A DNA stretch of 41,661 nucleotides from a virus. The DNA lies in the IMG/VR virus record IMGVR_UViG_3300042475_002850, positions 1 through 41,661 of that record, one strand, 5' to 3'. Position 1 is the stretch's first letter. Each line of letters begins with the position of its first letter. Below are positions 1-32,280 of the stretch, piece after piece. Both the position numbers and the translations under genes were made by a program. The notes below the pieces were generated by a model, which saw only the letters and a program-made list of their open reading frames with translations, made no database searches and was not told the DNA's origin.

Positions 1-2118
1 GTTACTATTATATTTTAAGATGCCATTACCGGGATCAGAATCGGTAGTGTCTGTAGAAAAATTATACCTAACTCCTCCAGCAACTCCAGAAGTTCCACTG
101 CTTCCAGAACTTCCACTTGAACCACTGCTACCACTTGATCCACTGCTACCACTTGATCCACTGCTTCCAGACGATCCACTACTTCCAGAACTTCCACTTG
201 AACCACTACTTCCAGAAGTTCCGCTTGAACCACTACTTCCAGAACTTCCACTTGAACCACTGCTACCACTTGAACCACTGCTTCCAGAACCACCACCACC
301 AGTTTGTTTTTTTAATATACCACCTTCAATAACTAGAAAATCTGTTGCAGTTGTAGTTGAAACTGGCAATTCACTAAAATTTAAATTATTAGATGCATCA
401 TAGTACAATGTTCCCGTTGTAATACTATCTCGGCCATTAAATTTAGCTAAATATCCTGAAACACCTGTTCCTTCAATTAAATTTAAATCTTTTATTCCAG
501 TTATTGCATATTGAATACCAGTAGCAGTAAATTGACAAGAATCGGAATAATCAGTATAAATATCTTCATTAATAATACCTCTGACTTCGACTTCATAATC
601 AGTAACAATATCAATTGGTATAAAATAATATGGCTCAATATCACAAACAACTAATGAAGTAGATGGTGATGCGAAATCAAATCTTTGAGCAATTAAAATA
701 CCAGTTTTGTTGCTAAAATAATTTATTCCACTTTGTACTTCGGAAATGGTATTTCCATAATAATCAGAAGAATAAGATCCGATTATTGTAGAATTTGTAT
801 TATTACTATTAACTACACCTGTTGTACCTGTTTGACCTGTTGCGCCCGTTGCTTCACTTTGATATGTAATAAAAGAATTTAATTCGGAATCATAAAAATA
901 TGTCAAATATAATTTTCTACTATTTAAAGAACCAGACGGCAAAGTAATTGAAAAAATATCTTCAATTGTATCTTGAAAATATAAACCAGATGGAAATTTT
1001 CCTTTATTATCAAGAACTATTGTATGCTCTTTCCATTGAATACCTGATTCTCCAGACGCTTTAAAAATTGGTTCAAAATTTGCGCCAGAATAATATGGAT
1101 TTATATTTTTCTGAGTGTATGCTAATATATTATCACCAGTTCCTTGAGTAATATAAGAAATATTTTCTATCTTTGGAGCGTTAAGATAATATATATCTGA
1201 TATATTTGCATTACCACTTCTTGTCGCATGAACTTCATAATTTAAAGGTGAATTAGTATAAGGTGGAGACCATTTTACGAATAGTTTTTTATCAAAAACT
1301 TTTAAATCTGAATCGTATATTACAGATATCGCGCCAGTTAAATTAACAGGTTTTTCTTCGTATGTCTGCGAATCAATATTATTTATTTTTATCTGACCAA
1401 TTATATATGGCTGACCAGTATTATAATAATCTTGACAATTTAAACGATAAAATAACTTATCAACACCATTATTATTGATAAAAATATTTGAGCTTACATC
1501 GCTAGTTGATGAGTCATATAAATTTCCAAAAGAAGAATCAAAATAACTTTCTAAAGAAACGCTTTTTAAATAATCTTTTTCAGTTATAGAATAATTTATA
1601 AAAATACCGTTCGAGATGCTTGTATTTACATTTGAAAATGAAGCAATTGGAAAAGTAAAAATATAAACAGCTTGTGAAGTTTTACCATCATTAGTATAAG
1701 AAGTAATCCTTATTCTGCAATCTCGCAAATAATTTACATCGTTATAAGATAAAATAGCTAAATTTTTTAATGAAGAGGTATCAAATACATAATTAGTATT
1801 AATAAGCGTATCAGTCAACAAACTAACAATTTGATTATTATAGTCTAATAATTCAACAGTAAAGTTCGAAAAATTAGAATCTTTAAACTGATATATTTGA
1901 TTTGTATTTGGATCGAGAAGATCCCAAGACAACAATAAAGAATCTGTATTAACCGCTGCTTTTGAAGCCACTATCAGTGGATAATTCGAATAATCAGGAT
2001 CTGTATTAGCATCAAAACCATAATTATGTTGATCATTTACCTCAATTAAAGGTATATTACATCTAAGATTTACTATCTTAAATGGCTTTTGGCTGGCTAT
2101 TGTTTCGTTTGTGAACAT
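1..2118 (-). CDS. Tail fibre / tip extension protein with Ig/FN3-like domains and Gly-X-Y repeats (3' end off window)
   Basis: The frame is open from an ATG at 2118 to the window edge (706 codons, no stop), so the C terminus is missing. The ATG overlaps the stop of the J-like gene (TAATG), which suggests translational coupling. The N-terminal ~500 residues look like beta-sandwich domains; one FN3-like stretch has W-S-P-P-Y followed by Y-E-V-H-A. A short collagen-like G-A-T-G-Q-T-G-T-T-G lies near 839-816. From about 299 to 88 the protein is an almost pure run of Gly-Ser-Ser and Gly-Thr-Ser triplets, preceded by four glycines. By position it extends or decorates the tail tip and may bind the host. 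In lambda-like tails such domains are often part of gpJ, so this may be a split-off J extension. The function is inferred from architecture and context only. Confidence 0.85.
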   Translation of the reverse strand, partial: MFTNETIASQKPFKIVNLRCNIPLIEVNDQHNYGFDANTDPDYSNYPLIVASKAAVNTDSLLLSWDLLDPNTNQIYQFKDSNFSNFTVELLDYNNQIVSLLTDTLINTNYVFDTSSLKNLAILSYNDVNYLRDCRIRITSYTNDGKTSQAVYIFTFPIASFSNVNTSISNGIFINYSITEKDYLKSVSLESYFDSSFGNLYDSSTSDVSSNIFINNNGVDKLFYRLNCQDYYNTGQPYIIGQIKINNIDSQTYEEKPVNLTGAISVIYDSDLKVFDKKLFVKWSPPYTNSPLNYEVHATRSGNANISDIYYLNAPKIENISYITQGTGDNILAYTQKNINPYYSGANFEPIFKASGESGIQWKEHTIVLDNKGKFPSGLYFQDTIEDIFSITLPSGSLNSRKLYLTYFYDSELNSFITYQSEATGATGQTGTTGVVNSNNTNSTIIGSYSSDYYGNTISEVQSGINYFSNKTGILIAQRFDFASPSTSLVVCDIEPYYFIPIDIVTDYEVEVRGIINEDIYTDYSDSCQFTATGIQYAITGIKDLNLIEGTGVSGYLAKFNGRDSITTGTLYYDASNNLNFSELPVSTTTATDFLVIEGGILKKQTGGGGSGSSGSSGSSGSSGSSGSSGSSGTSGSSGSSGSSGSSGSSGSSGSSGSSGSSGSSGSSGSSGSSGTSGVAGGVRYNFSTDTTDSDPGNGILKYNSN
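88..299 (-). repeat. 9-bp periodic repeat encoding Gly-Ser-Ser / Gly-Thr-Ser triplets
   Basis: Near-identical 9-base units (on the + strand ccacttgaa, ccactgcta, ccagaactt and variants) run for about 210 bases. On the minus strand they encode collagen-like Gly-X-Y triplets in which X and Y are Ser or Thr and proline is absent. The same triplet vocabulary recurs in the fibre gene at 30976-32280, so the two loci share short homology that could recombine. Confidence 0.9.
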
Positions 2119-5100
2119 TAGATGAATGAATCGTTAGATCCTAATGGATAAATTCTTATAAATTCTAAAGTATTTTCCTCTTCTAGCTTTGGCACAACAA
2201 CCCTATATACCGATTGATCGCCAACATGCCATCTGAATGTTACTTTTTTAGAGTTTAAAACATAATCTATTAAAAGACCTTTTACATTATCTTTTATAGA
2301 AGAATAGTATGAATTAATAAATTCTAAAATTTTATCCACGTTAATTATGTTTACACTAAATAAATTTGATATTTGCGAATCGCTGTAATCAATTCCATGC
2401 ATAATATAATCGTATTTAGAATTATAATTATAATTTTCTTTGTTTTGACTAACTATACCATCATCACCAAAAATAACACTTATAGGAACAGTAACAAAAG
2501 AAATAATATCTCTTGGAATTGTTATGTTTTGATTAGATGATTCATTAGAATATATAGTATTTGCTGATAAATTATCGCGATTATCTACATAAGAAAATTT
2601 ATTTTTAACATATTCTACCGCTGTTATTTCATATTCTACTGGATTTGTCTCTTTAATACCTAATATTCTATATTTCTGAGTAAAAGATGAAGAAGTATTA
2701 TTTGAACTTTTTTCGTAAATCCATAAACTTGACGGACTTATAGAATATAAATTTTCTTGAGCTTCTTCGGTATCAGTTGCAACTGTAATTTTTGTTCTAA
2801 AATTACCATCTTTTCCTATTGAAGATATAGTAAATGTATAAATATAAGTTGTAGATAGATTGGCTATTTGAGAATCAGATATAGTATTTTGTGTTTTAGA
2901 TAATTCATTTAATTCATTTACTGAAATGCTTTTTTTAGGAACTATAAAACTAATACTATCTCCCACCTTTATATAATCATAAAGACTGTCTAATATAATT
3001 TCATTATTTTCATTAACTAATATTACTCTACCACCAAATCTATTTGATAATTTCAACGAATCGCTTACATTTATTATATCACCTGGATTTAAAAGCATTG
3101 CTTCTGGTCCAGCTTGAAAAGATATCAAATCTTGTTCTATTTGATTTGTTACTAAAAACCACTCTCCCAAACGTTTAGCTTGCGATTTACCAGTTATTCC
3201 AAATCCTAATATTTCTTTTTCAACGTATCCGTATCTTCTTATATTTAATTTATCTTCAACATATATGGTTTTATCTTTATATCCATCAGAAGAATCTGTA
3301 TATACGACTTTGGCAACCGTAAAGCGAGTGTCTTTCGAAGATCCAGAATAATTAAAAATACCATCTTTAACATTAGAGTTATTAAAGAAATAAACAGCCT
3401 CTTTTGGTCTGTCGTTATCAAATTTTAAAAAATCACTTGACCAATAAACCAAGCCCTTAAAGATTGAAGCGAAATTATTAACTAAATTAACTATATCTGT
3501 TTCAGAATTTATATAAATATTAGACGTAAATCTTGGCTCAACAATTTCCATAAATCCTTCAAATTTAACGCCAGCTTGACCTGTATTTGTTTGATACGAA
3601 TCTATCTCATCTTCACTAAATACCTGTTGATTATAAAGATAGTTTTTAAAATTAACTATATTTTGCGATGTTTTATTAACTATTTCATCTACAACAACAG
3701 CCAAAGCTTGATTAGATAATTTTATATCAGTTTTTGATTCAATGAAACTTTTTACTTCAGAAAATTGAGAACAAGTTTTATGCAATCCAAAATCATTACA
3801 TAATTCAATTATCGCTGAAGTTCCTGAAGGATTTATACTAACTGACAAGATTCTTTTTCTAAAACTTTTTAATATTGTTTCAGATTCTCCAGTTAAAGAT
3901 GTTGAATTAAATTTTAAATTTGATAAAGATAAAATAGAACCAATCGGAAACTGTTGCGAACTAAAACCACTACCGCTTAATTCAATATAATTATTTTTAT
4001 TATAAGTTCCAATACCAGCAACAGTAGCCATTTGATATTTAGTATTATTAAAAGTTGGAACCAACTCATCACAATATTTAGAAATCTGGTACATAGACCA
4101 TTTATCAATTAAACTTTCTGGCAAATTAAATTTACCTACTCCATATCTATTATTTGTAACTAAATCATATAAAATCCATGCTGGATTATCAGTCCATCTT
4201 AAAATAGGATCAAATTCTCCACTCCAAAAATCATTATAAGTTTTTGCATCTGGATCATAATTTTCTGGAACTTTTACTTGCAAAAGTTTTAAATTATACG
4301 ATCTTGTCGGAATACTACTAAAACCTCTTGCATCTAAACTAACAGTATAATAAGCTGAATTAGGGTATCTAAAATTTTTATCAATTATTTCTGTAACCGA
4401 CATTGCACCAATATTTAAAATAGTCTTAGTATCTCTAAGGGATGGAGAATTACTAAAATTATATAATTTTATAAAAGGCAATGCAGACTTATTAAAATCT
4501 TTTATATTTAATACAACTTCAAAATGATACGGACTTGTTGCAACCCCATTTACTTGATGTAAAATATATATACCAAAATCAGGATTCTGTTTAAAACCCA
4601 TTTCTATTCCGAAATATGCAGTATTGCTTTGCATATCTCCATCTCCATCAATTCTATATAAACTATTTACTTTTAATGTGACAATAAGAAAATCAGTATT
4701 TTCATCTTTTATCTCATGTGTAATACCAAAACATTCTTCATAAACACTTTGATTAAAGATACTTAAATTCATTTCAGAATTAGCAACGGCATTTATTATC
4801 TTTTGACCAACTTTTTTAGCTAAATAAGTTTTATGAACTCTGTTTTCATTGGATAAAATTGAGGAGTTCGAATTAAAAAATTTTAAATTACTATTTACAT
4901 TTAAATTAAATAAATTTTTATTATATTCTGTTGTTACTCCCACAGCATAAGGTGAAAATATATTATCACCAGCAGTCAGCACGGTTGACTGGAGAGAGCT
5001 TTGAAACTCATATCCCACCTTACCAAAAACACTTACTCTATTGAAATTTAAAGTATTATTTACTGAATTTTTTGCAGGTACATCGTTTAAATACAATCCT

Positions 5101-5414
5101 TTTAAATTTTCTTCATTATTTTGAGCGTTATCAAATAAAACTAAATCATTCCCCAAATCATCAAAGAGTCCAAAAATTGGACCTTCACAAATCAAATCTT
5201 GCACATACAATCTTGAAGAAGATTCTAAATTAAAAGTTTTATCATTTTTATTTATATAAGGAGTAATAGAATCAAAATTCTTTAACAAAAGATCGCCAGC
5301 TTGTTGAATATTATAATATGTTAATACATTACTAACTGAATTTTCTGCTGGAGACAGCATAGAAGAGTTAGCTGAACTAATAGTTGATAAAAAAGTTGAA
5401 TCTTGAAATGTCAT
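2118..5414 (-). CDS. J-like: Lambda gpJ-like central tail tip / host specificity protein
   Basis: 1098 residues, close to lambda gpJ (1132). The N terminus has the J-family signature V-Q-D-L-I-C-E-G-P-I-F-G-L, followed by a Y-L-N-D-V-P stretch. Around residues 400-425 is the strongly conserved W-T-D-N-P-A-W-I-L-Y-D-L segment, then N-R-Y-G-V-G and a helix ending Y-C-D-E-L-V-P, all typical of J-like tip proteins. It sits last in the M-L-K-I-J series, immediately after the I-like gene, as in lambda. J trimers form the tail tip and usually contact the receptor. The start at 5414 lies 12 bases after the upstream stop. Its C terminus is shorter in fibre-like sequence than some relatives; the coupled downstream gene may supply that part. 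Confidence 0.9.
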   Translation of the reverse strand: MTFQDSTFLSTISSANSSMLSPAENSVSNVLTYYNIQQAGDLLLKNFDSITPYINKNDKTFNLESSSRLYVQDLICEGPIFGLFDDLGNDLVLFDNAQNNEENLKGLYLNDVPAKNSVNNTLNFNRVSVFGKVGYEFQSSLQSTVLTAGDNIFSPYAVGVTTEYNKNLFNLNVNSNLKFFNSNSSILSNENRVHKTYLAKKVGQKIINAVANSEMNLSIFNQSVYEECFGITHEIKDENTDFLIVTLKVNSLYRIDGDGDMQSNTAYFGIEMGFKQNPDFGIYILHQVNGVATSPYHFEVVLNIKDFNKSALPFIKLYNFSNSPSLRDTKTILNIGAMSVTEIIDKNFRYPNSAYYTVSLDARGFSSIPTRSYNLKLLQVKVPENYDPDAKTYNDFWSGEFDPILRWTDNPAWILYDLVTNNRYGVGKFNLPESLIDKWSMYQISKYCDELVPTFNNTKYQMATVAGIGTYNKNNYIELSGSGFSSQQFPIGSILSLSNLKFNSTSLTGESETILKSFRKRILSVSINPSGTSAIIELCNDFGLHKTCSQFSEVKSFIESKTDIKLSNQALAVVVDEIVNKTSQNIVNFKNYLYNQQVFSEDEIDSYQTNTGQAGVKFEGFMEIVEPRFTSNIYINSETDIVNLVNNFASIFKGLVYWSSDFLKFDNDRPKEAVYFFNNSNVKDGIFNYSGSSKDTRFTVAKVVYTDSSDGYKDKTIYVEDKLNIRRYGYVEKEILGFGITGKSQAKRLGEWFLVTNQIEQDLISFQAGPEAMLLNPGDIINVSDSLKLSNRFGGRVILVNENNEIILDSLYDYIKVGDSISFIVPKKSISVNELNELSKTQNTISDSQIANLSTTYIYTFTISSIGKDGNFRTKITVATDTEEAQENLYSISPSSLWIYEKSSNNTSSSFTQKYRILGIKETNPVEYEITAVEYVKNKFSYVDNRDNLSANTIYSNESSNQNITIPRDIISFVTVPISVIFGDDGIVSQNKENYNYNSKYDYIMHGIDYSDSQISNLFSVNIINVDKILEFINSYYSSIKDNVKGLLIDYVLNSKKVTFRWHVGDQSVYRVVVPKLEEENTLEFIRIYPLGSNDSFI

Positions 5415-5426
5415 TGTCTTATGATT

Positions 5427-6068
5427 TTACCAAAGTTTATTAGTTATTGGTATATTTCCACCGCTACCTACTCCACTTCCGCCTCCTGCAAATCCTATAC
5501 TAGAACCAGCGCCAGAAGACACATCATTTCTTAAATAATCAAAATTGATAGAAAAACTACTAACTATTAAACTACCAACTCTCAATTTTCCATAACCAAT
5601 TGGAACAGCAGCGTTTCTAGCTGCAATATTTGATTTAGCTCCAAGAATATATGAAGATGTTTTTATCTGTTTAGGATCTTTAGGAGTTAAAAGTTTAGAA
5701 ATCAAAAAACTTATACCAAAGCTTAAAGCGGCCACGACAACAACATTAGCAACAAATACTAAAGCTTTTGTTAACAATGTTGCGGTTGCTGCGGCTGTAA
5801 AAATAGCAGAAAAAACTTGAACTGGTAACAGTTCGATAACCTTACAATTTCTAATATATTGATTTAACAACTGCGAATCATTAATAATTTTACCATCTAT
5901 AACTATAACTACAGAATCAAAAATATGATTAAAATTTCTTATCTTAGACCCTAATTTAGGAAAATTAACCTGCAAACATTTAATAATATCGTCAAAACTA
6001 CCGGCTTTGATCATCAAACTCCCACAGGCCAGTTTCTTCAATAAACCGTGTAATAATAGTTTTTTCAT
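5427..6068 (-). CDS. I-like: Lambda gpI-like tail assembly protein
   Basis: 213 residues (lambda gpI is 223). The N-terminal ~80 residues fit the ubiquitin-like beta-grasp domain of the family, beginning with L-L-L-H-G-L-L. A hydrophobic Ala/Val-rich segment follows (about 85-125). The C-terminal part has the family hallmark A-V-P-I-G-Y-G-K-L-R-V-G-S, and the end is Gly/Ser-rich. The start at 6068 overlaps the JAB gene by 71 bases; I keep it because the beta-grasp begins at the first residues, whereas the alternative Met19 would cut off its first strand. In lambda, I is needed for tail tip assembly and is not retained in the virion. It lies between the K-like and J-like genes as expected. Confidence 0.88.
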   Translation of the reverse strand: MKKLLLHGLLKKLACGSLMIKAGSFDDIIKCLQVNFPKLGSKIRNFNHIFDSVVIVIDGKIINDSQLLNQYIRNCKVIELLPVQVFSAIFTAAATATLLTKALVFVANVVVVAALSFGISFLISKLLTPKDPKQIKTSSYILGAKSNIAARNAAVPIGYGKLRVGSLIVSSFSINFDYLRNDVSSGAGSSIGFAGGGSGVGSGGNIPITNKLW

Positions 6069-6432
6069 TTTTAATATTTACACCTAAAAAAGTATTTAAT
6101 TTTATACTATATATAATAAGCGGAATATTGTAATTTTTAATAAAAAAAATATCATTATCCGATGGATATGGCGAATCAGGATGACTGTGGAAACAAAAAG
6201 ATATATTTTCTGGCTGTCTTAAATATAAATAAAAAGCATAGTCAGGATAAAAATTATATTTGTTTTCACACAAAGAGTTAAAATAAATTACCTCTTTATT
6301 CTTTAAAACAAGACCACCAGATTCATACTGAGATAATGATAAACAGTATGTTTTTATCTTATATAATACGTCAAACCGTATAGTCGAAAGGTCTAGTTCC
6401 AGGAAATCCTCCATAAGGTAATCCTTTTCCAT
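5998..6432 (-). CDS. K-like: JAB/MPN (JAMM) metalloprotease, N-terminal half of lambda gpK
   Basis: 144 residues with a JAMM metal site: Glu37 (Y-E-S-G-G), then H-S-H-P at 82-85, Ser91 and Asp94. The spacing between the second His and Ser is six residues, one fewer than the usual seven. Lambda gpK has a JAB domain followed by an NlpC/P60 peptidase; here the protein ends after the JAB fold, so the cell-wall hydrolase half is absent. The gene overlaps the L-like gene by 62 bases and the I-like gene by 71 bases, with a possible later start at Met7. In lambda-like phages K acts in tail tip assembly. Activity of this copy is inferred from the intact metal ligands. Confidence 0.88.
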   Translation of the reverse strand: MEKDYLMEDFLELDLSTIRFDVLYKIKTYCLSLSQYESGGLVLKNKEVIYFNSLCENKYNFYPDYAFYLYLRQPENISFCFHSHPDSPYPSDNDIFFIKNYNIPLIIYSIKLNTFLGVNIKNEKTIITRFIEETGLWEFDDQSR

Positions 6433-7456
6433 GATTTTGCCATCTTAGTTTGCAACCTTTCAAATTTTTAGCGCAAGTATCTTTAATCCAGTATTCAGGA
6501 AATAATTTAGGATCTTTAATTCCAGGATTTCCACCATTATAAGCTGAACCATGAATTTTTATACAAACATAAAATGAATAAGATAAATTATCTTCTACGA
6601 ATTGAGTGTCTCCTCCAAAGAAATCAAAATTCACTGAATCAATATATTTTACAAAATCTCCAGGATTATATGTACCAATATCTTTTAAATAAGTTCCTCT
6701 ATATGTAATTTGAGATAGATTGTATCCATTTGGCGAATAGAATTCTTTATTATTCTCATCCGCAACCGGGACTCCTTCATTATTTTTTTTATCTCCCCAA
6801 ATATCTGATTCTGTTTTAGCTACTGTAGAATTAGAAACAAAAATTTTCTGCTCTCCTTTTGGACTCCAAGGTATTTTACCATAATTACAACCGCAACCAC
6901 GATAATTCCAAGAACATATATTATCTGATATTTTTCTATTTGGAAGAGCTTGATTTTCCAAATCTAAAGGGCTACTAAGGTCAAATTCAATATAAAATTT
7001 ATTTTCTTGAGTTTTTTTATTAATCAAATAATTATCTTCATAAAAAGATTCTCCATATCCCAAAACAGCATTTCTTTTTTTTCTATATCCAAAAAATGGA
7101 TTAACTTCATCACTAAAATTAATATCATCTAAATTTCTAACAAATACTTTTATTCTTTTAATCTTAGAGTTAATTAGATCGTTTTTATTTTTTATATAAT
7201 TTGTTATATATCCATCCACATTAGCTAATTTTATAGAAGGTCTATTTTGTTTACCATCAGCAGAAAATTCAAAACCACTAAAATCAACAGGTAAAGGTGC
7301 GTAAGAATTACCTCTAAAAATTAAATTTCTATTAAAATTTTTACCGGCATGAAATCTGAATATTCCAATTGTTTCATCAATATAAATTTCAAACAGATCA
7401 ACAAATGAATCTGGATTTAAATTAATTAAAGATGTTGTTGAAATTACGTCTGACAT
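6371..7456 (-). CDS. L-like: Lambda gpL-like minor tail protein with Fe-S cysteines and an inserted module
   Basis: 361 residues against about 232 for lambda gpL. The N-terminal ~175 residues match the L family: F-E-I-Y-I-D, F-H-A-G-K-N, G-F-E-F-S-A-D-G, N-R-P-S-I-K-L-A-N-V, then S-S-P-L-D and L-P-N-R-K. The cysteines of the C-terminal Fe-S site are present as C181, C188/C190 and the pair C328, C335 (D-T-C-A-K-N-L-K-G-C-K), followed by L-P-Y-G-G-F-P-G. About 130 residues are inserted between the two cysteine groups. They include Y-N-P-G-D-F-V-K-Y ... Y-V-C-I-K-I-H ... P-E-Y-W, which resembles CBM5/12-type carbohydrate-binding modules. The start follows the previous stop by two bases. Confidence 0.9.
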   Translation of the reverse strand: MSDVISTTSLINLNPDSFVDLFEIYIDETIGIFRFHAGKNFNRNLIFRGNSYAPLPVDFSGFEFSADGKQNRPSIKLANVDGYITNYIKNKNDLINSKIKRIKVFVRNLDDINFSDEVNPFFGYRKKRNAVLGYGESFYEDNYLINKKTQENKFYIEFDLSSPLDLENQALPNRKISDNICSWNYRGCGCNYGKIPWSPKGEQKIFVSNSTVAKTESDIWGDKKNNEGVPVADENNKEFYSPNGYNLSQITYRGTYLKDIGTYNPGDFVKYIDSVNFDFFGGDTQFVEDNLSYSFYVCIKIHGSAYNGGNPGIKDPKLFPEYWIKDTCAKNLKGCKLRWQNHGKGLPYGGFPGTRPFDYTV

Positions 7457-7458
7457 AT

Positions 7459-9126
7459 TTATGATATGATTTTTCTTATTTTTCCAAATAAATTAGGTCT
7501 ATCTACTTGAGAATAATAAATATCTTTTGAGTTTTGTATTTCCACTGAGCTTCCAAAAAACGCTTTTTGCTTATACTTCTCTATCAAATAATCTACAATT
7601 ATTTTTTGAGGATTTCCCGTATTTAAATCTTGAAGATTTCTATAAGACAATACTTCATATAATTTATGAGTAAAATATGGTCTAAAATTATTTGATGCAT
7701 CTTTAAAAGCCCCACTACCAACAGTTATTTTATAATTTTTAGGATCTGTTAACATATTATTTTGCAACAAATTAGATTCCACATTATTTTTATAATATCC
7801 ATGAAAATATTTAAATTGCTTATTAAATTGATAAAAACCATTATAAATAATAGAAAATTTATTTTTACTTATTAATTGAGACAAACTGTCGTATTGAGAC
7901 TTTAAATAATTTCTATTACCCACTCTATCATATGTAAATGTAGGATCTCCATAAACGCCATTATATGCTATAAGCCTTTGTAAATCAATAACAACACCAG
8001 AACTATCAAAAAATTGTTGCATATTATCTCTTGTCCAAGTAATAGTATTATTATAATCAGAAATATTATTATTTGTTTTAGATCTTTTATGTTTAAATCT
8101 GAAGCCATAAATATTACCTGCACTATAAGCTTCTCTCAAACTAGAATATGTAGAAGTTTCAGAATCAGTCCAAGTTGTAGATATACAATGAGATCGATCA
8201 TTAGACCATTTATATATATATAAAATTGTAACAAAAGAACCAGCTGATAAATTCGATCTAAAAATACGACCAGCCCCTTCAAATGTAAAAGATAATAAAC
8301 CTGTTCCAGAATTATAAGAGGTTACCGTTCCATAAACATTATCGTCATCGTTATATATATTACCAACAATAACAACATCTCCTGCTGAAAATAGTTTTCC
8401 TGTTTCAATTGTTATCGTTATTGTACCTGATGTCACAGTATTTAATATTGTGCCTGAATCAATATAAGATACATATCCATCATTAACATCTATTTCATTA
8501 ACAAATACATTTAGTAAACTAGTAGTATCACTTGAAGCGCTTGAAAAATTTTTTATTAAAAACTTAGAACAAGTATCTCCTACAGTCGATCCATTCAAAC
8601 TAATATAATTCTTATTTAAATTTAATTCAGTATCTTGAACCACAGAAACAGTTTCAGTTCCATTTGTCAGAATTGTAAAATCATTAACAGAAGCTCCATT
8701 TGATAAATTCACACCAGCGGTTTTTGAATCTGCAACTCCACTATATAAATTAGCAAATTTTAATTGTGCTGAAGAATTATAAATATTAACTTCAGACGCT
8801 GGATTAATATAACCAAAATTTATTTCAGATTTATTTGAATTATCATAGACTATTTTTAACGCATGCCCACAATCATTTTCTTCTTTTATGTCTTGAATAT
8901 AAAAAGAACTAGTTTGAACATCTAAAAAAGAACTAGATTGATCTTGAGAACCTACAGCAAATTGAATTTGCGGTTTACGACTTTTTTCACCAGCATCTCC
9001 ACCCCCTCCACCAATTAAATACATAACTTGCGGCGTTGCAGGTAATAATTGCAACGCAGAAGCGGTTTTTGATGGTAAGAAACTATCGTATAACGAGACT
9101 ACTTTTAATTGTAAATTTAATGGCAT
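7459..9126 (-). CDS. Uncharacterised minor tail protein between M-like and L-like genes
   Basis: 555 residues with no family I can name. After a leader of about 35 residues comes a short glycine run (G-G-G-G-G-D), then beta-rich, Ser/Thr/Asn-rich sequence with low-complexity turns. The C-terminal ~200 residues are richer in Tyr and Lys and contain the aromatic stretch F-K-Y-F-H-G-Y-Y. The gene follows the M-like gene by 11 bases and precedes the L-like gene by two, so it is almost certainly co-expressed with the tip proteins. Lambda has no counterpart at this place. It could be an extra tip or adhesion component; that is inference from position. Confidence 0.8.
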   Translation of the reverse strand: MPLNLQLKVVSLYDSFLPSKTASALQLLPATPQVMYLIGGGGGDAGEKSRKPQIQFAVGSQDQSSSFLDVQTSSFYIQDIKEENDCGHALKIVYDNSNKSEINFGYINPASEVNIYNSSAQLKFANLYSGVADSKTAGVNLSNGASVNDFTILTNGTETVSVVQDTELNLNKNYISLNGSTVGDTCSKFLIKNFSSASSDTTSLLNVFVNEIDVNDGYVSYIDSGTILNTVTSGTITITIETGKLFSAGDVVIVGNIYNDDDNVYGTVTSYNSGTGLLSFTFEGAGRIFRSNLSAGSFVTILYIYKWSNDRSHCISTTWTDSETSTYSSLREAYSAGNIYGFRFKHKRSKTNNNISDYNNTITWTRDNMQQFFDSSGVVIDLQRLIAYNGVYGDPTFTYDRVGNRNYLKSQYDSLSQLISKNKFSIIYNGFYQFNKQFKYFHGYYKNNVESNLLQNNMLTDPKNYKITVGSGAFKDASNNFRPYFTHKLYEVLSYRNLQDLNTGNPQKIIVDYLIEKYKQKAFFGSSVEIQNSKDIYYSQVDRPNLFGKIRKIIS

Positions 9127-9137
9127 ATTTTACGTCT

Positions 9138-11984
9138 TTAACCTTTAGGATTTGGATATTGATTTTTACCGAATTCTACAATAGATGTTAAATTATAATT
9201 ATTTGACGCTTTTAATATTTGTGCGTCATCAATAAATGTTATCGGATTAATTCCCGTACCTTTGCCAAGCCCCCCGCCAGCACCTCCAAAAACTTTATAA
9301 GGAATTGGTTTTCTTGTAGGATCAAAAAAATCATATAAAATAGATGATCCTTGAGCAGAAGTCTGATCTTTATTTAAAATTGTATTTGCTTTGTTAAAAT
9401 GAAGTTTCAAAGTGTTAAATTGAGTGACATTAGAAGTTGTAGAAAAATCATCTTTTAAAGTTGTGTATTTATTTGATTCATATTTTACAACATCACCTAA
9501 TTCAATATTATCACCAGCACCACCACCTGCCGCAAAAATAGAATCATAATCTTTATTAATATTAATTATTCCACTGCAATGAATATAAAAAGCGTTTTTA
9601 CCTGAATAAACTGGATTATCAATATCTTTAATATCGCAAACATTTCCACCTTTTCCTATTACATTAGTCTTTGTAAAATTCAAAGTTACACCTGATGGCA
9701 TCATTGAATAATTTCCTGTTATAATAAAAGAACCTGTATTATAAACACTTAAATCAGAATCGGCTATTAAAGGCCCATAATACGAATTATCAAAATATAT
9801 TTTAACGCCAGAATATAAAGAAAAAGCACTTCCAAATCTGGCATTTGTTTCTACAAATTTATACAAATCAAAATAACTAGCTCTATCATTTTTTATATAA
9901 AAAGTTTCTACACTTCCATCAAGTCTGATAACAGGAGGATTTATATTAAAGTTTGCTAAATTATTAACAGTTAATCCTGAAATAACTTGTTGATTAGTAA
10001 TTTGATCCGTTATTCTATCTACTCCAGATGCAAAAACATAAGGACTACTATTTAGTCCTAAATAGTTTGTATTTAAACCACTAACTCTTAAAAAATAATC
10101 AACTCCTAAAGAAATACCAGTAAAATTCATTTCAAAAGCAGTTTCATTCGGAACACCAATTTCGTATAAATCGTTTGTATTATTTAATACCACACCTTTA
10201 GAAGATCCTGTATATTGATTTGCAACAAACGAACCACTAGTAGTCGATAATCTTCCAGAAAAATTATTATAATAGTATCCACTTTGAGGTATAACAAATT
10301 TTGTTTTTAAACAAAGTTGATTTATAGAAAAATCATAATACGGACTAGCAACACAATTTTTTAATCCACTTAAAAAAGCAGTATTGATTGTTTCTCCATA
10401 ATCATAAAACTCTCCTGAATAATTTAATTTTAATTCATTATCCGCAATTATACCATCATTTTCTTTTTCTTGTACAAATTGATATGCTCCTGTATATTTA
10501 AAATATGTACTAGCAAAAATACCTTCATTAGAAGTTTCAAGATCGCAATCTATTGTATAATTAGCATAACCGCCACCTTTAGCAGTTTGAATTTGAGACT
10601 CATTATCTAATTGATGAACAAAATTTACATCTGTATTTTGTACTGAATTTGGATCAAAAATATCAGAACTAATAGTAAAAGTAACAGGTTTATATTCGTT
10701 ATTTTTAATTTTTACTATTTGTTTTTTAGAAAAACCTAGTGGAACAAATCCAAAATTAATTCCACTTGGATTTAAAGCGGTATCAAATTGATCATCAATT
10801 ATATAATTGAATTTAGATTCAATTAATCTGGCTTTGATTGTGTGATTATCAGCAAAATTATATGTATGATTCCATTCGGGACAGAAAAAAGCTCTTGTTC
10901 CTGTATATGGAGGAAACATGTCATATTCAAATAACTCTAAACCATTATGATTTTCTAAAAAGTGCAATATAGCTTTCGCTTCTTTATCGTTTCTATTATT
11001 AAAGCTTAATTGAAGATCAAAAAAGTTAGGATTTATACCAACAGATTGATTTAAGTAAAAATTACCTAAATCATTTTTATACATTGAAGATTCAAAATTT
11101 AAAGTCTCAATAAGGTCTGGTGAAAAATAAAATTTTTGAGTCCATAAATTTTCAACGCCATCTGAATATGGACTTACTCCTAAAATACTGTCTCCAGAAC
11201 AATAAAAAAATCCTTCAGAACTATTATTTGATTTATATTCAAAAACATAATCATGTTTTGAATATTGCAATGTATCATAATAATTATTTTCAGATGTCTT
11301 AAAAGAAATTAATTTTTCTTTCCACGATGTTAAAGAAATAAATGGTGATTCAACTTCTAAAGTAATATTATTAAAATCAACATTTTCTAAATCATTATTT
11401 ATAGATTTTAAGTAAAATGGTCTGACTTTATCATGAGGATAAAATAAACTCATTTCAATAGGTTGCATTCCTTGACCATTTGCTAAACCACTTTTTGTAA
11501 AATAATTTTGATAAAAATGATTTAATGCGCGAGCTTCATTATCAGTAACTCCTTGAAAACTTAACGTTGCCGATACTTGAATTACATTTTCGCTTTTGCC
11601 CAATACATATCTGTATTGATCTTCAAACATATTTTCATAATAGTTCGCATTAAATTGAACTGAAGATCCATAAGTAGGAATAAAAAAGAAATTTTGAACC
11701 CACCAGCTAGATAATGAATCGCCATTTAAAACGCTATCTGGTCTTGTCCAAAACTTATTGTCTCCAGAAACATTATATTTTTCATTTTTTAAATAATAGT
11801 ATCCAGTTTTTCCTAATACTGGATTTATTACAGTTTCAGTTATTGGCGGTGTTTTTGTATTATCCGTATAAGTACCAGCATTTATACCAGTATAATAAAC
11901 AATTTCATACTCATTAAATGCAATTCCTGTCTCGTAATACGGGACATTCGGCATTAATATTCTATAATCGTTTACAGCTTTCAT
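9138..11984 (-). CDS. M-like: Minor tail protein with two lambda gpM-like domains
   Basis: 948 residues; lambda gpM is only about 109. Two stretches each resemble M: residues 98-215 (N-F-F-F-I-P-T-Y-G-S-S-V, then L-S-F-Q-G-V-T-D-N-E-A-R-A-L-N-H-F) and 284-392 (K-F-Y-F-S-P-D, then L-S-F-N-N-R-N-D-K-E-A-K-A-I-L-H-F-L, and F-F-C-P-E-W-N-H-T). Each copy is preceded by an aromatic module with Y-x-V-x-Y spacing (about 20-95 and 240-282) that resembles small carbohydrate-binding modules; a third, E-L-G-D-V-V-K-Y, lies near 825-855. The C-terminal ~550 residues are beta-rich and include a G-K-G-G ... A-A-G-G-G-A-G-D glycine-loop region seen in other phage tip proteins. The start overlaps the upstream stop (ATGA). 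Confidence 0.85.
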   Translation of the reverse strand: MKAVNDYRILMPNVPYYETGIAFNEYEIVYYTGINAGTYTDNTKTPPITETVINPVLGKTGYYYLKNEKYNVSGDNKFWTRPDSVLNGDSLSSWWVQNFFFIPTYGSSVQFNANYYENMFEDQYRYVLGKSENVIQVSATLSFQGVTDNEARALNHFYQNYFTKSGLANGQGMQPIEMSLFYPHDKVRPFYLKSINNDLENVDFNNITLEVESPFISLTSWKEKLISFKTSENNYYDTLQYSKHDYVFEYKSNNSSEGFFYCSGDSILGVSPYSDGVENLWTQKFYFSPDLIETLNFESSMYKNDLGNFYLNQSVGINPNFFDLQLSFNNRNDKEAKAILHFLENHNGLELFEYDMFPPYTGTRAFFCPEWNHTYNFADNHTIKARLIESKFNYIIDDQFDTALNPSGINFGFVPLGFSKKQIVKIKNNEYKPVTFTISSDIFDPNSVQNTDVNFVHQLDNESQIQTAKGGGYANYTIDCDLETSNEGIFASTYFKYTGAYQFVQEKENDGIIADNELKLNYSGEFYDYGETINTAFLSGLKNCVASPYYDFSINQLCLKTKFVIPQSGYYYNNFSGRLSTTSGSFVANQYTGSSKGVVLNNTNDLYEIGVPNETAFEMNFTGISLGVDYFLRVSGLNTNYLGLNSSPYVFASGVDRITDQITNQQVISGLTVNNLANFNINPPVIRLDGSVETFYIKNDRASYFDLYKFVETNARFGSAFSLYSGVKIYFDNSYYGPLIADSDLSVYNTGSFIITGNYSMMPSGVTLNFTKTNVIGKGGNVCDIKDIDNPVYSGKNAFYIHCSGIININKDYDSIFAAGGGAGDNIELGDVVKYESNKYTTLKDDFSTTSNVTQFNTLKLHFNKANTILNKDQTSAQGSSILYDFFDPTRKPIPYKVFGGAGGGLGKGTGINPITFIDDAQILKASNNYNLTSIVEFGKNQYPNPKG

Positions 11985-13510
11985 AAATTTTGATTACCAA
12001 CTCCAGCAAAACCAACATTACCTGCTTTTATTAAATAAGGATTTTTTTCAGTTCCACTTCCATTAGATGTTTCCCCTAACCAATCAAACAAATCACTAAA
12101 TAAATATTCCTTCAATAAAGTTTGATTATCTTCAGCTTTAAAAGAAAATCTGAATGCTAAATTCGAAGAATAATTAGAATAGAAACTGGTCGCATTAAAA
12201 TTATCTTTAAAATTTTTGTTAACTTTGAATGAACATCCTAATTGATTTTTCTTTTCAAACCAAACTGTTGAAAATTCACCATCTTCATTTTGACGACCAA
12301 TTAATTTAATTTTATTAACAGGGAATTGAATTAAATTAAATTTATAAGTTAAATTATTTTCGCTAAAAGATTTTAAAGATGGAGAATTGGGTAAAGTTTC
12401 TGTTATTATGGATCTATAATTTGGATTTAAACTATATATAACTAAATCAAATAGAACGACATAGTAATAATATTCATCTTCATCAGTCTCTGGTGCTGTA
12501 GTAGTACCAGTACTTACCTCTGGATCTTTTAGATTTGGTTTTTGTTCTTCAACAATTGGTACAGATATTACAACAGATCCCGGAATTACAATAGGATTGA
12601 CCGGATTAACTGTAGGAGGTGCAATTATATTTGGATTGCTAACTTCCATAGGTATAGTAACTGGTGAGCGTTTTCTATTAAGTGCTTGAGTCATTTTTAT
12701 TTTACTTAATCCATAATTATCATCACTTATTTCATAATTTTGATCTATTATTATACCAGTTAAATTTATAGTATCATTAATATTCAAGTTTGTATTATCT
12801 CTTAATACAGCAGAAAATTCAGCAGTATTTCCATGAATATCAAGATATCCATCAATATTATTAGTAGTTATACTAAACTCACCATTGGCTTCTTTCATAG
12901 CTACTCGCAAAGGAAACGTATCTCCAACTCTTAAAACTGGAACACGCTCTACAGAAAATTGATAATCAAAATCAGTTACAACAAAATCAGCAGCATTTTC
13001 AATATAAGACGATCTATTGTCAGTTAAGATATAACTAGACATACCATTCAACGTATTTAATCCTGAAGTAAATAAATTATTTGCATACGCGACACCATTT
13101 GCTGGTATATTCGTAGATTTATTATTTAATATTAAAGGATTAGTATTTAAAGCTTTAACTCCATGATAAAATACAAATTCTGCTCTTACCGGAATCGGCT
13201 CAAATGGTTTTACTGAAAAACTCAAACTTGTTAAATAACAATCTGGTATCAGTAATCTATTAAAAGCAATTTTGACTGGAGTTTCATCTTGATTTTCCAA
13301 TCTAAGATAACTAGGTATAGCACCAGTTAGAAAAAAATTTAATCCTACAGTCCCCTGAATTGGGCCTGTTGGAGAATAATAAAGCAAATTACCATAAACA
13401 TCTTTTACAGGAACTGTATTTGCATTTAATTGCAAACTAATATTATTCGCTGGAAATAGATTATTATTTATTAAAACTTGATTTTCTTCAAATGTAAGAA
13501 AATTTGCCAT
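11981..13510 (-). CDS. Minor tail protein, tail-tube-like N-terminal domain (putative)
   Basis: 509 residues. The first ~130 residues have the pattern of a tube-like beta-sandwich: a G-T-V-G-L-N-F-F-L-T-G stretch, then C-Y-L-T-S-L-S-F-S-V-K-P and F-V-F-Y-H-G-V-K. A Pro/Val/Ile-rich linker near residues 285-325 is followed by an acidic stretch (D-E-D-E) and a C-terminal beta-rich domain of about 170 residues. It lies between a fibre-like gene (one base after that stop) and the M-like gene (ATGA overlap), so it is probably a distal tail or tip component. I do not recognise a named family; the tube-like reading is from the sequence pattern alone. Confidence 0.75.
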   Translation of the reverse strand: MANFLTFEENQVLINNNLFPANNISLQLNANTVPVKDVYGNLLYYSPTGPIQGTVGLNFFLTGAIPSYLRLENQDETPVKIAFNRLLIPDCYLTSLSFSVKPFEPIPVRAEFVFYHGVKALNTNPLILNNKSTNIPANGVAYANNLFTSGLNTLNGMSSYILTDNRSSYIENAADFVVTDFDYQFSVERVPVLRVGDTFPLRVAMKEANGEFSITTNNIDGYLDIHGNTAEFSAVLRDNTNLNINDTINLTGIIIDQNYEISDDNYGLSKIKMTQALNRKRSPVTIPMEVSNPNIIAPPTVNPVNPIVIPGSVVISVPIVEEQKPNLKDPEVSTGTTTAPETDEDEYYYYVVLFDLVIYSLNPNYRSIITETLPNSPSLKSFSENNLTYKFNLIQFPVNKIKLIGRQNEDGEFSTVWFEKKNQLGCSFKVNKNFKDNFNATSFYSNYSSNLAFRFSFKAEDNQTLLKEYLFSDLFDWLGETSNGSGTEKNPYLIKAGNVGFAGVGNQNL

Positions 13511-13511
13511 T

Positions 13512-15479
13512 TTATTGTTGGATGTATGTGCCTACTTCAGTTGAAGTGTCTGATTCAACAAAATAACTAACTATTGTATTTAAATTTTTAGCGCCATCTA
13601 AATGAACCACATCGCTTGAAGTTGCACCTGTAACTGCATAAGCAACCCATCCAATATTATCAAATTTATTAAATTCTAAAGTATTTATACTAGCGCCATA
13701 GAATTTTTGACCATCAGTAGTATTTGATCTTCTAGCTTTAAGATTGAAAAAATCTTGACCCGTAATAGCACCAGATACATAAACAAATGTAGATAAATCA
13801 ATATCTTGAGGATCTTTATTTATATTGTTAGCGGCATCCCATAATTGAAAAAATGTTTTTGTACCAACTGATGTGGTTCTTGGAGTTCCGCTTACATAAT
13901 CTATTCCTCCTACTTCAGTCATTATCAAGTCATTAAATCTATTAAAAACTAAATAACCTGTTCCATTTGTTATAGTAGGATTTAATTTACAAGTAAAATC
14001 CACGCCTTCAATAATTCCTCCTAGTTGACATAAAGTATGATAACTTAAACTACCAGAATTTTGATGATTATAATTAATATTATCTAAATGTAAATATACA
14101 GGATCATATGCATCAGAAGATGTAGCTCTATGAGTTTGTATGAATTTTCCCTGACAATATTTATTATTTGTACTATAATATCTATTTATATCTAAATCGC
14201 CATGATCAGATATTGTTGCTACATTTCTTGAAGAATTATAGACGTTAGAAGAAGTGCCTGTTTGCCAAAAGAACACACCTAATCCATTGCTATCTCCATA
14301 GATATTATCACCTTGAAATTTATAGCCAACAATCATGTTATTGTTAGCGCCAGATGAGTATGTAGTAAAAATTTCATTAAAAGCACTACCAACTTCTGAA
14401 TTAATTTGGTATTTTATTACCATTGTTTCGCTGGCAGACTGATATCTTGTAAATAATGTACTACTTGCTCCTGAAATATCAATTGATGCGCTTGGATCAA
14501 CACCTATGCCTATTCTTTTATTAGCTAAATCAAATATAATTGGATCTAAAGCGCTAATCGCTCCTGCTGATTTATTTCTACCCCAATATAACTGACTAGT
14601 ACTTGGATCAAATGTAGCAGAAACAGTAGTTGAAGAACCTATTTTTCTCCAATGTAAATTAGGACTAGTTACATCTTCAATTAAAACTGTTTTATATGTT
14701 GTACCATTTGTAGTATCATTCGTAACCATCAATCTAGCATCAGGAGATCTATCATCATTATTTCCAATTCTTGTCAAACCATTATCATGATCAGTAAAAA
14801 CAGCACCACTTAAACCAAAGAAAGTACCACTTGTTATATTACCATCTTGATAATAATTTATATATAAATTTTTACTGCTCTGAATACCACTATAATCAAA
14901 ATCTATATCATTACTAATAACATTGTTATCAAAAGACATTCTTAAACCAGTTTTGGCAAAAAATTGCATATTAATATCTGATTCAACATTAGCAACAGAA
15001 TATTGACTACCATCTGTGATCAACATACGACCATCAGTATCAATATTTATAGATGGATAATAGATATTAGCAGAATCGCCACTAATAAAAAATTTTCCAC
15101 TAGGAACGTTTCCTAAATACCAAGGATAATTATTATCAGCTAATTTAAGATAACCTGTATATCCAGAGGCCGACTGTATTGTCAAAATAGCATTTTGTCC
15201 AGCATAACCACTAATATGCAAAATAGAAGAAGGAACAAAATTCGATCCTCCACCGACACCTACATATTTATTATTTGATGGTATTCTAATTACTGGTAAA
15301 GAATAATCAGAAACACCGATTTGCATCGTATTAGAACCAGTGGTTCTAAGAAAATTAAAATTAGTTTGAAAATTATCAAATGTAATAATTTCTGTCGAAC
15401 CTGCGGCATTTGATTTCAACAATACATCTGTCGATGCAATCGTCGAAGATTCTGGTAATGCTGATATTTTATCGCCCAT
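13512..15479 (-). CDS. Tail fibre-like structural protein
   Basis: 655 residues. It begins G-D-K-I-S-A-L-P-E-S-S-T-I, a leader seen at the start of many phage fibre and virion proteins (K-I-S-x-L-P). Repeating beta-strand sequence rich in Ser, Thr, Asn and Gly follows, including several variants of G-x-x-x-L-x-I fibre turns. I see no S74 peptidase catalytic motif and no collagen-like triplets. The first ~40 residues probably anchor it to the tail. The start is preceded by a GTGTAA box 13 nt upstream, one of six in the window, so it may be separately regulated from the neighbouring minor tail genes. Role inferred from composition and location. Confidence 0.8.
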   Translation of the reverse strand: MGDKISALPESSTIASTDVLLKSNAAGSTEIITFDNFQTNFNFLRTTGSNTMQIGVSDYSLPVIRIPSNNKYVGVGGGSNFVPSSILHISGYAGQNAILTIQSASGYTGYLKLADNNYPWYLGNVPSGKFFISGDSANIYYPSINIDTDGRMLITDGSQYSVANVESDINMQFFAKTGLRMSFDNNVISNDIDFDYSGIQSSKNLYINYYQDGNITSGTFFGLSGAVFTDHDNGLTRIGNNDDRSPDARLMVTNDTTNGTTYKTVLIEDVTSPNLHWRKIGSSTTVSATFDPSTSQLYWGRNKSAGAISALDPIIFDLANKRIGIGVDPSASIDISGASSTLFTRYQSASETMVIKYQINSEVGSAFNEIFTTYSSGANNNMIVGYKFQGDNIYGDSNGLGVFFWQTGTSSNVYNSSRNVATISDHGDLDINRYYSTNNKYCQGKFIQTHRATSSDAYDPVYLHLDNINYNHQNSGSLSYHTLCQLGGIIEGVDFTCKLNPTITNGTGYLVFNRFNDLIMTEVGGIDYVSGTPRTTSVGTKTFFQLWDAANNINKDPQDIDLSTFVYVSGAITGQDFFNLKARRSNTTDGQKFYGASINTLEFNKFDNIGWVAYAVTGATSSDVVHLDGAKNLNTIVSYFVESDTSTEVGTYIQQ

Positions 15480-15510: not shown

Positions 15511-16485
15511 CTATTCTAAATAATTTCCAACGTATGATGGATATGTTTTATTTAAATATGTTAAATATGTTAGTTTAACAATAGCTACATCATCTACCGT
15601 GCTAGTAAATTGTTCAGAAATTAATCTTGTATTAGAACTGTTAAAATTAAAAATCTGATTAGTGCTAGGATCAACCTCATTTTTCTGTTTAAATAATAAA
15701 GGAACTCCAGCTTCAGTTGTTATCGACACGCCATCTTCTGTTAGCAGTTCAGAATCTTCATAAACGATTCCATTAATATTAATAGAAAAAACATTAAAAG
15801 CATTAGTTCTTAAAGCATCAGATTGTCTTCTTAATTCATAGTCATCAATTTCCATTGTTATATTTGTTAAAACTTCAATGGGCCATTTAGTTTTAATTTG
15901 AAATGGAGAGGTTGAATTTGTGCGCCAAATCTCATGTTTATTTATTTGAGTAGATAAATCAAAGCTTACCACTCTATTCGTAGTACTACCATCACATGTG
16001 ATACTTATTGTACTTGGAAGAGGCACAACTGCTGGATTATCAGTATTGTAACCAATAGCATTTAATGATGATGCATCACCAAGCATTGTTGTATTTGTAC
16101 TATCTATATATAAACCACTACCAATATCGCCATATACAGTTATACCATAGTTAGCAACAGGAGCTTCACCATAATTTACAGAATAAGAATAAGAAGTTAA
16201 ACTTCCCAACTCAAAACCAAAAACTTTATCTGAATAATTTATAGATCCTCTTATAAAAGAATCAATACCCGTATATTGACGCATAAAATCTTCTGCAATC
16301 ATTGTTCTTGTTATCGAAAAATCTCCTTGAGGTATAGAAGCTACAACATTTTTAATAGTCCCTTGACCCATTATATTAATAGGTCTTACTGTATTAGAAT
16401 ATGATCCATCTACATCGGTGACATAATCTAATTTACGACCACCAATGTAAACTGTTTGATCATATTGAGCTTGTGAGAATTTCAT
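15511..16485 (-). CDS. Distal tail / tail-tube-like protein (putative)
   Basis: 324 residues, directly after the tape measure gene, with its ATG overlapping the tape measure stop (TAATG); this is where siphoviruses usually carry a distal tail protein. The N-terminal half, with G-Q-G-T-I-K-N-V-V-A-S-I-P-Q-G-D-F-S-I and F-E-L-G-S-L-T-S-Y-S-Y-S-V, fits a beta-sandwich of the tail-tube superfamily. The C-terminal half contains E-D-S-E-L-L-T-E-D-G-V, a turn-rich strand pair common in tail proteins. No named family is evident, so the call rests on position and pattern. It may form a ring joining the tube to the tip. Confidence 0.75.
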   Translation of the reverse strand: MKFSQAQYDQTVYIGGRKLDYVTDVDGSYSNTVRPINIMGQGTIKNVVASIPQGDFSITRTMIAEDFMRQYTGIDSFIRGSINYSDKVFGFELGSLTSYSYSVNYGEAPVANYGITVYGDIGSGLYIDSTNTTMLGDASSLNAIGYNTDNPAVVPLPSTISITCDGSTTNRVVSFDLSTQINKHEIWRTNSTSPFQIKTKWPIEVLTNITMEIDDYELRRQSDALRTNAFNVFSININGIVYEDSELLTEDGVSITTEAGVPLLFKQKNEVDPSTNQIFNFNSSNTRLISEQFTSTVDDVAIVKLTYLTYLNKTYPSYVGNYLE

Positions 16486-30975: not shown

Positions 30976-32280
30976 TTAGAAATTTTGCCCTCCATTAAAA
31001 CCGTACCAGTTAGTACCATCGTATATAAAACTAAATACATCAAATTTACCATTTGTTGTCGTTAATGTTGGTGCTGTACCACCTGCCCACTTAACAGCAA
31101 CACCTCCAAATGTCCAAGTTATTGTGTATACAGATCCGTTTGGAACTGTAATGAGAGTAAAACTGCTAATTTTACCAGCAGTTAAATTACTTATCGTCCA
31201 ACTTGTAACGCTTGCATTTAAAGTTAGTCTTACAACAGTTTCATTATTCAAGTCAACTGTTACAACACCTGTCGATGGAGATACGGATGAAAAAGTTTCT
31301 CTAATTCCTTCTAATTGAAATGCATTAGTAGTAGTAACTACAGTTCCATCATCAGTAATAGATGATGTAGTCAAAGAGTTTGCTCCAGAATATTTTGCAA
31401 TTGTATTAACTGTTCCACCCGAAACTCCAGATCCACTAGTTCCTGAAGAACCACTAGTTCCAGACGAACCACTGCTGCCAGAAGTACCAGATGAACCTGT
31501 ACCACCAGAAGTTCCAGACGAACCACTGCTACCAGAAGTTCCAGATGAACCTGTACCACCAGACGTTCCAGACGAACCACTGCTGCCAGAAGTACCAGAT
31601 GAACCTGTACCACCAGAAGTTCCAGACGAACCACTGCTGCCAGAAGTACCAGATGAACCTGTACCACCAGAAGTTCCAGACGAACCACTGCTACCAGAAG
31701 TGCCAGATGAACCTGTACCACCAGAAGTTCCAGACGAACCACTGCTGCCAGAAGTACCAGATGAACCTGTACCACCAGAAGTTCCAGACGAACCACTGCT
31801 ACCAGAAGTGCCAGATGAACCTGTACCACCAGAAGTTCCAGACGAACCACTGCTACCAGAAGTACCAGATGAACCTGTACCACCAGAAGTTCCAGACGAA
31901 CCACTGCTACCAGAAGTGCCAGATGAACCTGTACCACCAGAAGTTCCAGACGAACCACTGCTACCAGAAGTGCCAGATGAACCTGTACCACCAGAAGTTC
32001 CAGACGAACCACTGCTGCCAGAAGTACCAGATGAACCTGAGCTACCTGAAGTTCCCGCACTACCTCCACTGCCTCCACCACCAGTTTGATCCACCCAAAC
32101 CACATCATAGTTAGTTGAACTCGCTTTGGCAAGAACTTGATTAACTGTACCACCAACTGGAATACCTATACCACTAGTTCCAGAAGTTCCAGATGGACCT
32201 ACTGGACCTAGAGTTTGAGTGGATAAAGCTATATTATTTGCATTAGAACTTATTGTTATTGAAAAATCATTAGATGGCAT
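30976..32280 (-). CDS. Collagen-like tail fibre protein with C-terminal knob
   Basis: 434 residues. The first ~65 form an anchor domain with a short Gly-Pro collagen-like stretch. Residues ~66-285 are Gly-X-Y triplets built of Ser and Thr only (GSS, GTS, GGT), organised as ten copies of an 18-residue unit. The last ~145 residues form a beta-rich knob ending Y-D-G-T-N-W-Y-G-F-N-G-G-Q-N-F, a common close for phage fibre tips. The triplet region should form a trimeric rod without proline. The gene is preceded by a small beta-protein gene 14 bases away and is likely co-expressed with the downstream glycine-rich adhesin. Attachment to head or tail cannot be told from the sequence. Confidence 0.85.
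   Translation of the reverse strand: MPSNDFSITISSNANNIALSTQTLGPVGPSGTSGTSGIGIPVGGTVNQVLAKASSTNYDVVWVDQTGGGGSGGSAGTSGSSGSSGTSGSSGSSGTSGGTGSSGTSGSSGSSGTSGGTGSSGTSGSSGSSGTSGGTGSSGTSGSSGSSGTSGGTGSSGTSGSSGSSGTSGGTGSSGTSGSSGSSGTSGGTGSSGTSGSSGSSGTSGGTGSSGTSGSSGSSGTSGGTGSSGTSGSSGSSGTSGGTGSSGTSGSSGSSGTSGGTGSSGTSGSSGSSGTSGSSGTSGSGVSGGTVNTIAKYSGANSLTTSSITDDGTVVTTTNAFQLEGIRETFSSVSPSTGVVTVDLNNETVVRLTLNASVTSWTISNLTAGKISSFTLITVPNGSVYTITWTFGGVAVKWAGGTAPTLTTTNGKFDVFSFIYDGTNWYGFNGGQNF
31460..32035 (-). repeat. Ten tandem 54-bp repeats encoding Gly-X-Y triplets
   Basis: The unit is six 9-base words. Its marker word cctgtacca starts at 31496 and recurs every 54 bases to 31982, giving ten copies. Differences between copies are mostly at third codon positions (gta/gtg, cta/ctg, gaa/gac), arranged in mosaic order. 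Partial units flank the array on both sides. Confidence 0.95.

Follow-up and report, generated by a model that had tools for sequence, protein, structure and literature searches.

A predicted CBM5/12-fold domain in the Fe-S loop of gpL-type tail-tip hub proteins from viral contigs

The viral record IMGVR_UViG_3300042475_002850 was analyzed over its full length of 41,661 bases, here called the window. It encodes a protein resembling lambda gpL, in which a long stretch with motifs of carbohydrate-binding modules lies between two groups of cysteines. This raises the question of what the stretch is, how it is placed in the hub, and whether it serves to bind sugar. The protein has 361 amino acids and is encoded by an ORF at 6371..7456 (-). 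It matches Pfam Phage_tail_L (PF05100) with E 3e-34 and 118.6 bits against a curated cut-off of 25. It also matches the PDB chain of lambda gpL (8iyk_L) with E 3.2e-17, and the alignment has a further, weak piece that covers the Cys motif near the C-terminus. PHROG and model comparison agree with this assignment. The full-length model, built with 41 sequences, is weak (mean pLDDT 62.6); against lambda gpL it gives Z 15.0 over the range 2-361 with an rmsd of 7.9. This comparison marks an HDI-like N-terminal domain at residues ~1-165 (6962..7456, -), and the alignments of other hubs cover roughly residues 7-171 of the window protein.

The downstream genes follow the same pattern. A gpK-like JAB-domain protein lies at 5998..6432 (-) (Prok-JAB E 4e-4, below the Pfam cut-off), a gpI-like tail assembly protein at 5427..6068 (-) (phrog_32, E 2.3e-11), and a gpJ-like central tail fiber at 2118..5414 (-) (phrog_31, E 4.3e-119). 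Lambda gpL likewise has the HDI domain, both cysteine pairs and the gene order L-K-I-J. As judged from sequence, the 361-aa protein is a gpL-type tail-tip hub, and the phage is a siphophage whose L-K-I-J genes are clustered in a lambda-like way.

Other large ORFs were recorded in the window. Upstream of gpL, those at 7459-9126, 11981-13510, 13512-15479 and 15511-16485 have no PHROG match at E 0.01, and the ORF at 7459-9126 has weak PHROG matches alone (E 0.2). The product of 30976-32280 (-) is a tail-fiber-like protein with a collagen-like Gly-X-Y run of 219 residues, and its PHROG matches are tail fiber and collagen-like minor tail proteins. The ORF at 1-2133 (-) is truncated by the contig end and carries a Gly-X-Y run of 75 residues.

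The window protein has cysteines at residues 181, 188, 190, 298, 328 and 335. The available text of the lambda structure paper names C173, C182, C205 and C212 as the Fe-S cysteines of lambda gpL (PMC10721106), and the 8iyk_L alignment pairs them with C181, C190, C328 and C335. By this alignment and by Cys positions, the first Fe-S group runs from C181 to C190 (CSWNYRGCGC; 6887..6916, -) and the second from C328 to C335 (6452..6475, -). All four paired residues are invariant across the 41-sequence alignment and are putative 4Fe-4S ligands. The stretch with the first cysteines (171-190) has a pLDDT of about 28 in the full-length model. Cys298, within YVC, was considered as a fifth Fe-S ligand and rejected because the residue is not invariant among relatives, some of which have Ala or Ser.

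The two inner cysteines are separated by 137 residues in the window protein (C190-C328), which include an added domain, compared with 22 in lambda (C182-C205). Ten gpL proteins from bacterial genomes, and that of Erwinia phage Midgardsormr38, also have a short loop. Most of these proteins have a P-V-A-D turn, and about 10 residues on comes the D-x-C or a similar motif of the second pair. The window protein keeps both the turn (PVADENN) and the D-x-C, with the extra domain placed between the two. The turn belongs to an N-x-G-V-P-V-A-D-E-N-N-K element at residues 226-239 (6740..6781, -), which probably corresponds to the PPVADxNDNP turn of short-loop gpL proteins; residues 197-225 form a variable linker ahead of it, and the module follows C-terminally. 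The predicted CBM5/12-fold domain is thus inserted after the PVADENN turn and ahead of the second Fe-S cysteine pair, a placement in which both pairs retain their sequence context.

The interval 6476..6730 (-) corresponds exactly to residues 243-327 of the protein. The initial annotation had read an ordered CBM5/12-like motif string in these residues and had placed the module between the gpL cysteine groups. Both observations were confirmed: YNPGDFVKY starts at 263, YVC at 296 and PEYW at 320, H302 is present, and the insert lies between Cys181/190 and Cys328/335. Profile comparison and modeling delimit the CBM5/12-like domain to residues 248-327 (6476..6715, -), with predicted strands at 251-255, 267-275, 291-298 and 323-325. 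An expanded hairpin at residues 274-291 (6584..6637, -), modeled with partly low confidence, replaces the short turn of ordinary CBM5/12. Across 53 aligned modules, Y263, P316, W323, D326, C328 and K330 are invariant, and P230, G266 and V297 nearly so. The conserved proline is thus P316, unlike P320 of the PEYW motif. Region-by-region identity shows that residues 302-313 (6518..6553, -) form a hypervariable loop: with gaps scored as differences, its mean identity is 0.31 in relatives at 0.83 overall and 0.04 in those at 0.63 overall.

The relation to CBM5/12 was evaluated with profiles. The comparators were phage CBM5/12-like modules, relatives of the phage protein P0005, which has a Pfam CBM_5_12 match of E 9.9e-8. 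When 28 gpL modules were compared with them by hhalign, a match of 46 columns reached probability 96.8 and score 51.4. Among 200 column shuffles the top score was 20.8, and reversing the alignment gave 8.8. None of eight gpL stretches with their end at or before residue 240 exceeded 10.1, and a stretch that extends into the module (161-260) scored 18.6. The near-window group alone gave a probability of 95.2 and a score of 42.2 (best of 200 shuffles 21.6), six more distant sequences gave 95.9, and the window sequence by itself gave 3.6. With E values scaled for 1000 sequences, an HMM made from the phage CBM5/12-like modules, with gpL left out, detected 35 of 107 gpL loops at E<=0.01, 20 of them at E<=0.001. 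Among 1177 shuffled or reversed decoys, none was detected at E<=0.01 and 3 at 0.1, versus 45 real loops.

Single-sequence searches were weaker. The window insert by itself had no match in Pfam, PHROG or PDB; on the window, PF02839 gave 0 matches and the phage CBM HMM none. Weak Pfam CBM_5_12 matches occur in three members of the 41-sequence set (best E 0.0081) and in one of 10 further relatives (E 0.015); 4 of the 51 scanned sequences thus have a weak match, and the window protein, also among the 51, has none and does not reach the PF02839 cut-off. The 53-module profile searched against 177,635 PDB sequences returned 10 at E<=10. Seven of them belong to chitin deacetylases or NodB proteins, with E values for the whole sequence of 0.028-0.14, and the others are 7b5h, a baseplate protein of a contractile injection system (E 0.074), and two unrelated entries; the single aligned stretches have E values of 7 to 78 and are individually non-significant. 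In the five PDB matches displayed, the aligned regions are two C-terminal stretches, presumably CBM12 repeats.

Structure prediction points to the same fold. A model of the module (residues 224-331, 53 sequences) reached pLDDT 75.4 and pTM 0.70. Aligned by VIA, it gave Z 6.7 with the tail fiber of cyanophage A-1(L) (8kec_a; rmsd 1.1 Å over 49 residues), Z 5.1 with a V. cholerae chitin deacetylase (4ny2), Z 4.0 with the chitinase entries 1ur9 and 1h0g, Z 3.7 with 7b5h and Z 2.9 with 9cuy, with the limit that VIA Z values below 8 may reflect just a common arrangement. VIA aligned 48 chains, of which 8 were at Z >=2, with 6 entries among the matches listed; the R4C and RcGTA hubs were absent among these. 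Presumably, the matched regions of 4ny2 and 1ur9 are CBM12 and CBM5. Residues 248-327 of the full-length model also matched the A-1(L) fiber at 134-184 (8kec_a, Z 4.9, rmsd 1.4). Foldseek found nothing significant for the module in the PDB (best E 2.9, top rows unrelated), and the chitin-related structural matches from the PDB come from VIA only. Among viral predicted structures (BFVD), the best E was 4.9e-3, and several of the 50 matches listed carry chitin- or carbohydrate-binding names. By prediction and by profile, the module is a small three-stranded CBM5/12 fold, and its fold and place are well supported.

Three scans of viral contigs gave 39, 56 and 80 loci, partly overlapping, the last being the best 80 of 575 relatives. 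They yielded 115 distinct gpL ORFs; three were partial or missing one cysteine group, and the other 112 contained 106 distinct loops. The module pattern, which was defined with the loops in view, was present in all 106; because the loops were collected with module-bearing queries, this frequency is biased. In shuffled loops it occurred 33 times in 5350 when the real tail was kept and 0 times in 5350 after full shuffling. Bacterial-genome loci carried the module in 1 of 11 cases, in a Flavobacteriaceae MAG. The gpL of this MAG chromosome (L256, CP070778.1) has the module and a nested insertion that by eye resembles that of viral contig L214; the likeness is a possible host hint or possible contamination. 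Fourteen gpL proteins have no such domain, namely ten from bacterial genomes and those of KBS-S-2A, S-H1, Cr-LKS4 and Midgardsormr38.

Isolate phages were searched by tblastn at 80% coverage. No record was covered with the window protein (0/1453), L040 (0/763), L253 (0/496), the first 312 residues of L251 (0/1339) or L081 (0/533). With L218, 165 of 1440 records were covered to 80%. Forty-nine of these are among the matches listed; in each, the matched span is 61 to 68 residues shorter than the covered part of the query, as a short-loop protein aligned across a gap would give. One L218 match, Midgardsormr38, is a short-loop gpL on reading its sequence. Among the records inspected, no isolate phage with the module was found; a diverged copy may exist. 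Among the titles and abstracts listed by searches of open-licence papers, none names a CBM5/12 domain in gpL. The site is a common place of tail-tip decoration in the viral contigs gathered here.

Many of these loops hold further sequence within the module. Loop length is up to 160 residues in 62 of the 106 and above 160 in 44. With positions assigned by script landmarks, 39 of the 44 long loops have an extra stretch of 85 to 343 residues between the first strand of the module and the YxxGD strand. The exceptions are L242, with its extra stretch elsewhere, and four in which landmarks were not found. Six of the 39 (L080-L083, L234, L240) have an additional long stretch ahead of the turn. L227 and L242 carry a segment of about 300 residues ahead of the PVAD turn, for which no relevant Pfam match was found, nor, for L242, a relevant PDB sequence match. 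A likeness of this segment to LamG-type lectins was considered and dropped, as was one of the L081 segment to jelly-roll CBMs; neither had such a Pfam match, and the L081 segment matched only phrog_30593 of unknown function. Three gpL ORFs of 729-832 aa (L251, L235, L246) have an added stretch beyond the second cysteine pair, which in L251 matches DUF7402 just below cut-off. In L245, the nested segment at residues 250-362 matches phrog_460 (head closure Hc2, E 2.6e-4), and because of this match its repeat type may be shared with further proteins of the virion.

An insert at this site is not without precedent. According to the available text, the Fe-S domain of lambda lies on the outer surface of the tail tip (PMC10721106), and in the hubs of roseophage R4C and RcGTA an oligosaccharide-binding domain separates the two halves of an ion-binding domain (PMC10276861, PMC7296036). 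The RcGTA domain was named from fold likeness, and the authors compared it with T4 gp27 and LKA1 gp49. The R4C hub has cysteines at 147, 157, 244 and 251, and hubs of its type carry a domain between cysteine pairs, as does the window protein with its 137 residues between C190 and C328. The metal-site cysteines given for JBD30 gp50 (147, 156, 238, 245; PMC11445458) have the same spacing. The R4C and JBD30 sequences had no HMM match to the gpL module profile and no match of note to the phage CBM profile; this holds at the sequence level, and a deeper fold relation may exist. Gp036 of Synechococcus phage S-CBS4, also a gpL, holds a large insert in this loop as well, with 260 residues between the inner cysteines and, by eye, no CBM5/12 motif.

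CBM families 5 and 12 (4ny2, 1ur9) share with the gpL module the fold, by model and by profile, and the core Tyr and Trp. They differ in a hairpin that is about 20 residues smaller and in the exposed chitin-binding pair, which is missing from the gpL module. The closest solved fold is the A-1(L) segment (8kec, residues 134-184), which belongs to a fiber, while the window protein is a hub; the available text of PMC10966104 gives no function for the segment. The insertion slot between the Fe-S halves is therefore already known, and the window protein carries a predicted CBM5/12-fold domain in it.

The initial annotation had proposed a sugar-binding module that would expose binding sites at the tail tip and leave the conserved core intact. 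The fold homology to chitin-binding modules raises the possibility of a working module of this type, one that contacts host polysaccharide via exposed aromatics. In CjCBM5, Y282, W283 and Y296 are exposed and touch chitin, Y265 and W299 are core residues, and the Y282-W283 pair after strand 3 is nearly fully conserved in CBM5, as given in the available text of PMC8449059. By motif order, the invariant Y263 and W323 would correspond to the core Y265 and W299. The exposed residues were counted in the 106 loops with strand 3, the conserved Pro and the conserved Trp as anchors. None of the 106, the window's included, has an aromatic pair within six residues after strand 3, and 14 have any single aromatic in that stretch. 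A Trp at most three residues ahead of the conserved Pro is likewise missing from all 106, and the third exposed position (W-3) is aromatic in 4. The pair is also missing in all 65 phage comparator modules. Sugar binding is consistent with the oligosaccharide-binding role proposed for the RcGTA and R4C domain at the same site, with the hypervariable loop that leads from strand 3 to the conserved Pro, and with a Tyr or Phe that immediately precedes the conserved Trp in 81 of the 106 (Y322 in the window), which could be a candidate for a different contact. The CBM5/12-like part of the proposal thus stands, on hhalign, the decoy-controlled HMM and the module model, and the sugar-binding part does not. 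Sugar binding is unproven and somewhat disfavored, would have to use residues other than the usual CBM5 pair, and we regard a working module of this kind as quite unlikely.

A structural role is another possibility. The module could pack on gpJ or the distal tail protein, stabilizing the cone or docking proteins, with no host contact. Its presence in every loop collected with module-bearing queries fits this, and the hairpin 274-291 is conserved nearly like the HDI domain among relatives with 60-75% identity (0.65 vs 0.70). However, strands 1-2 diverge faster than HDI (0.37 vs 0.70), the hairpin is lost in distant relatives (0.13), loop 302-313 is hypervariable, fourteen gpL proteins do without the domain, and the nested insertions, as long as 343 residues, point to a face turned outward. 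This role therefore seems unlikely. A chance likeness of the motifs in an unstructured linker would agree with the lack of a family match for the window sequence by itself, but the shuffle and decoy controls, the conservation and the model confidence speak strongly against it and make it extremely improbable. The reading we consider probable is that of a gpL-type hub with a CBM5/12-fold loop domain serving as an exposed decoration. Such a module would be displayed on a trimer and may aid adhesion by weak host-surface contacts. It may alternatively carry further domains, because many relatives hold large segments between its first and second strands.

A wider reading, put forward tentatively and with some doubt, is that the Fe-S loop of the hub is a general docking slot. 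Unrelated domains of the R4C/RcGTA/JBD30, S-CBS4 and CBM5/12 types would have been placed in it several times, the CBM5/12 type would act as a second-level platform that takes up other domains between its first two strands, and the Fe-S cluster would be a clamp through which the hub tolerates large inserts. Because the distance between the inner cysteines ranges from 22 to more than 500 residues, the cluster is suggested to pin both ends of the loop, which is a testable idea. The available text of the lambda structure paper leaves the role of the Fe-S domain open and says that what the cluster does in gpL homologues is still to be characterized (PMC10721106); the variable slot described here bears on this question.
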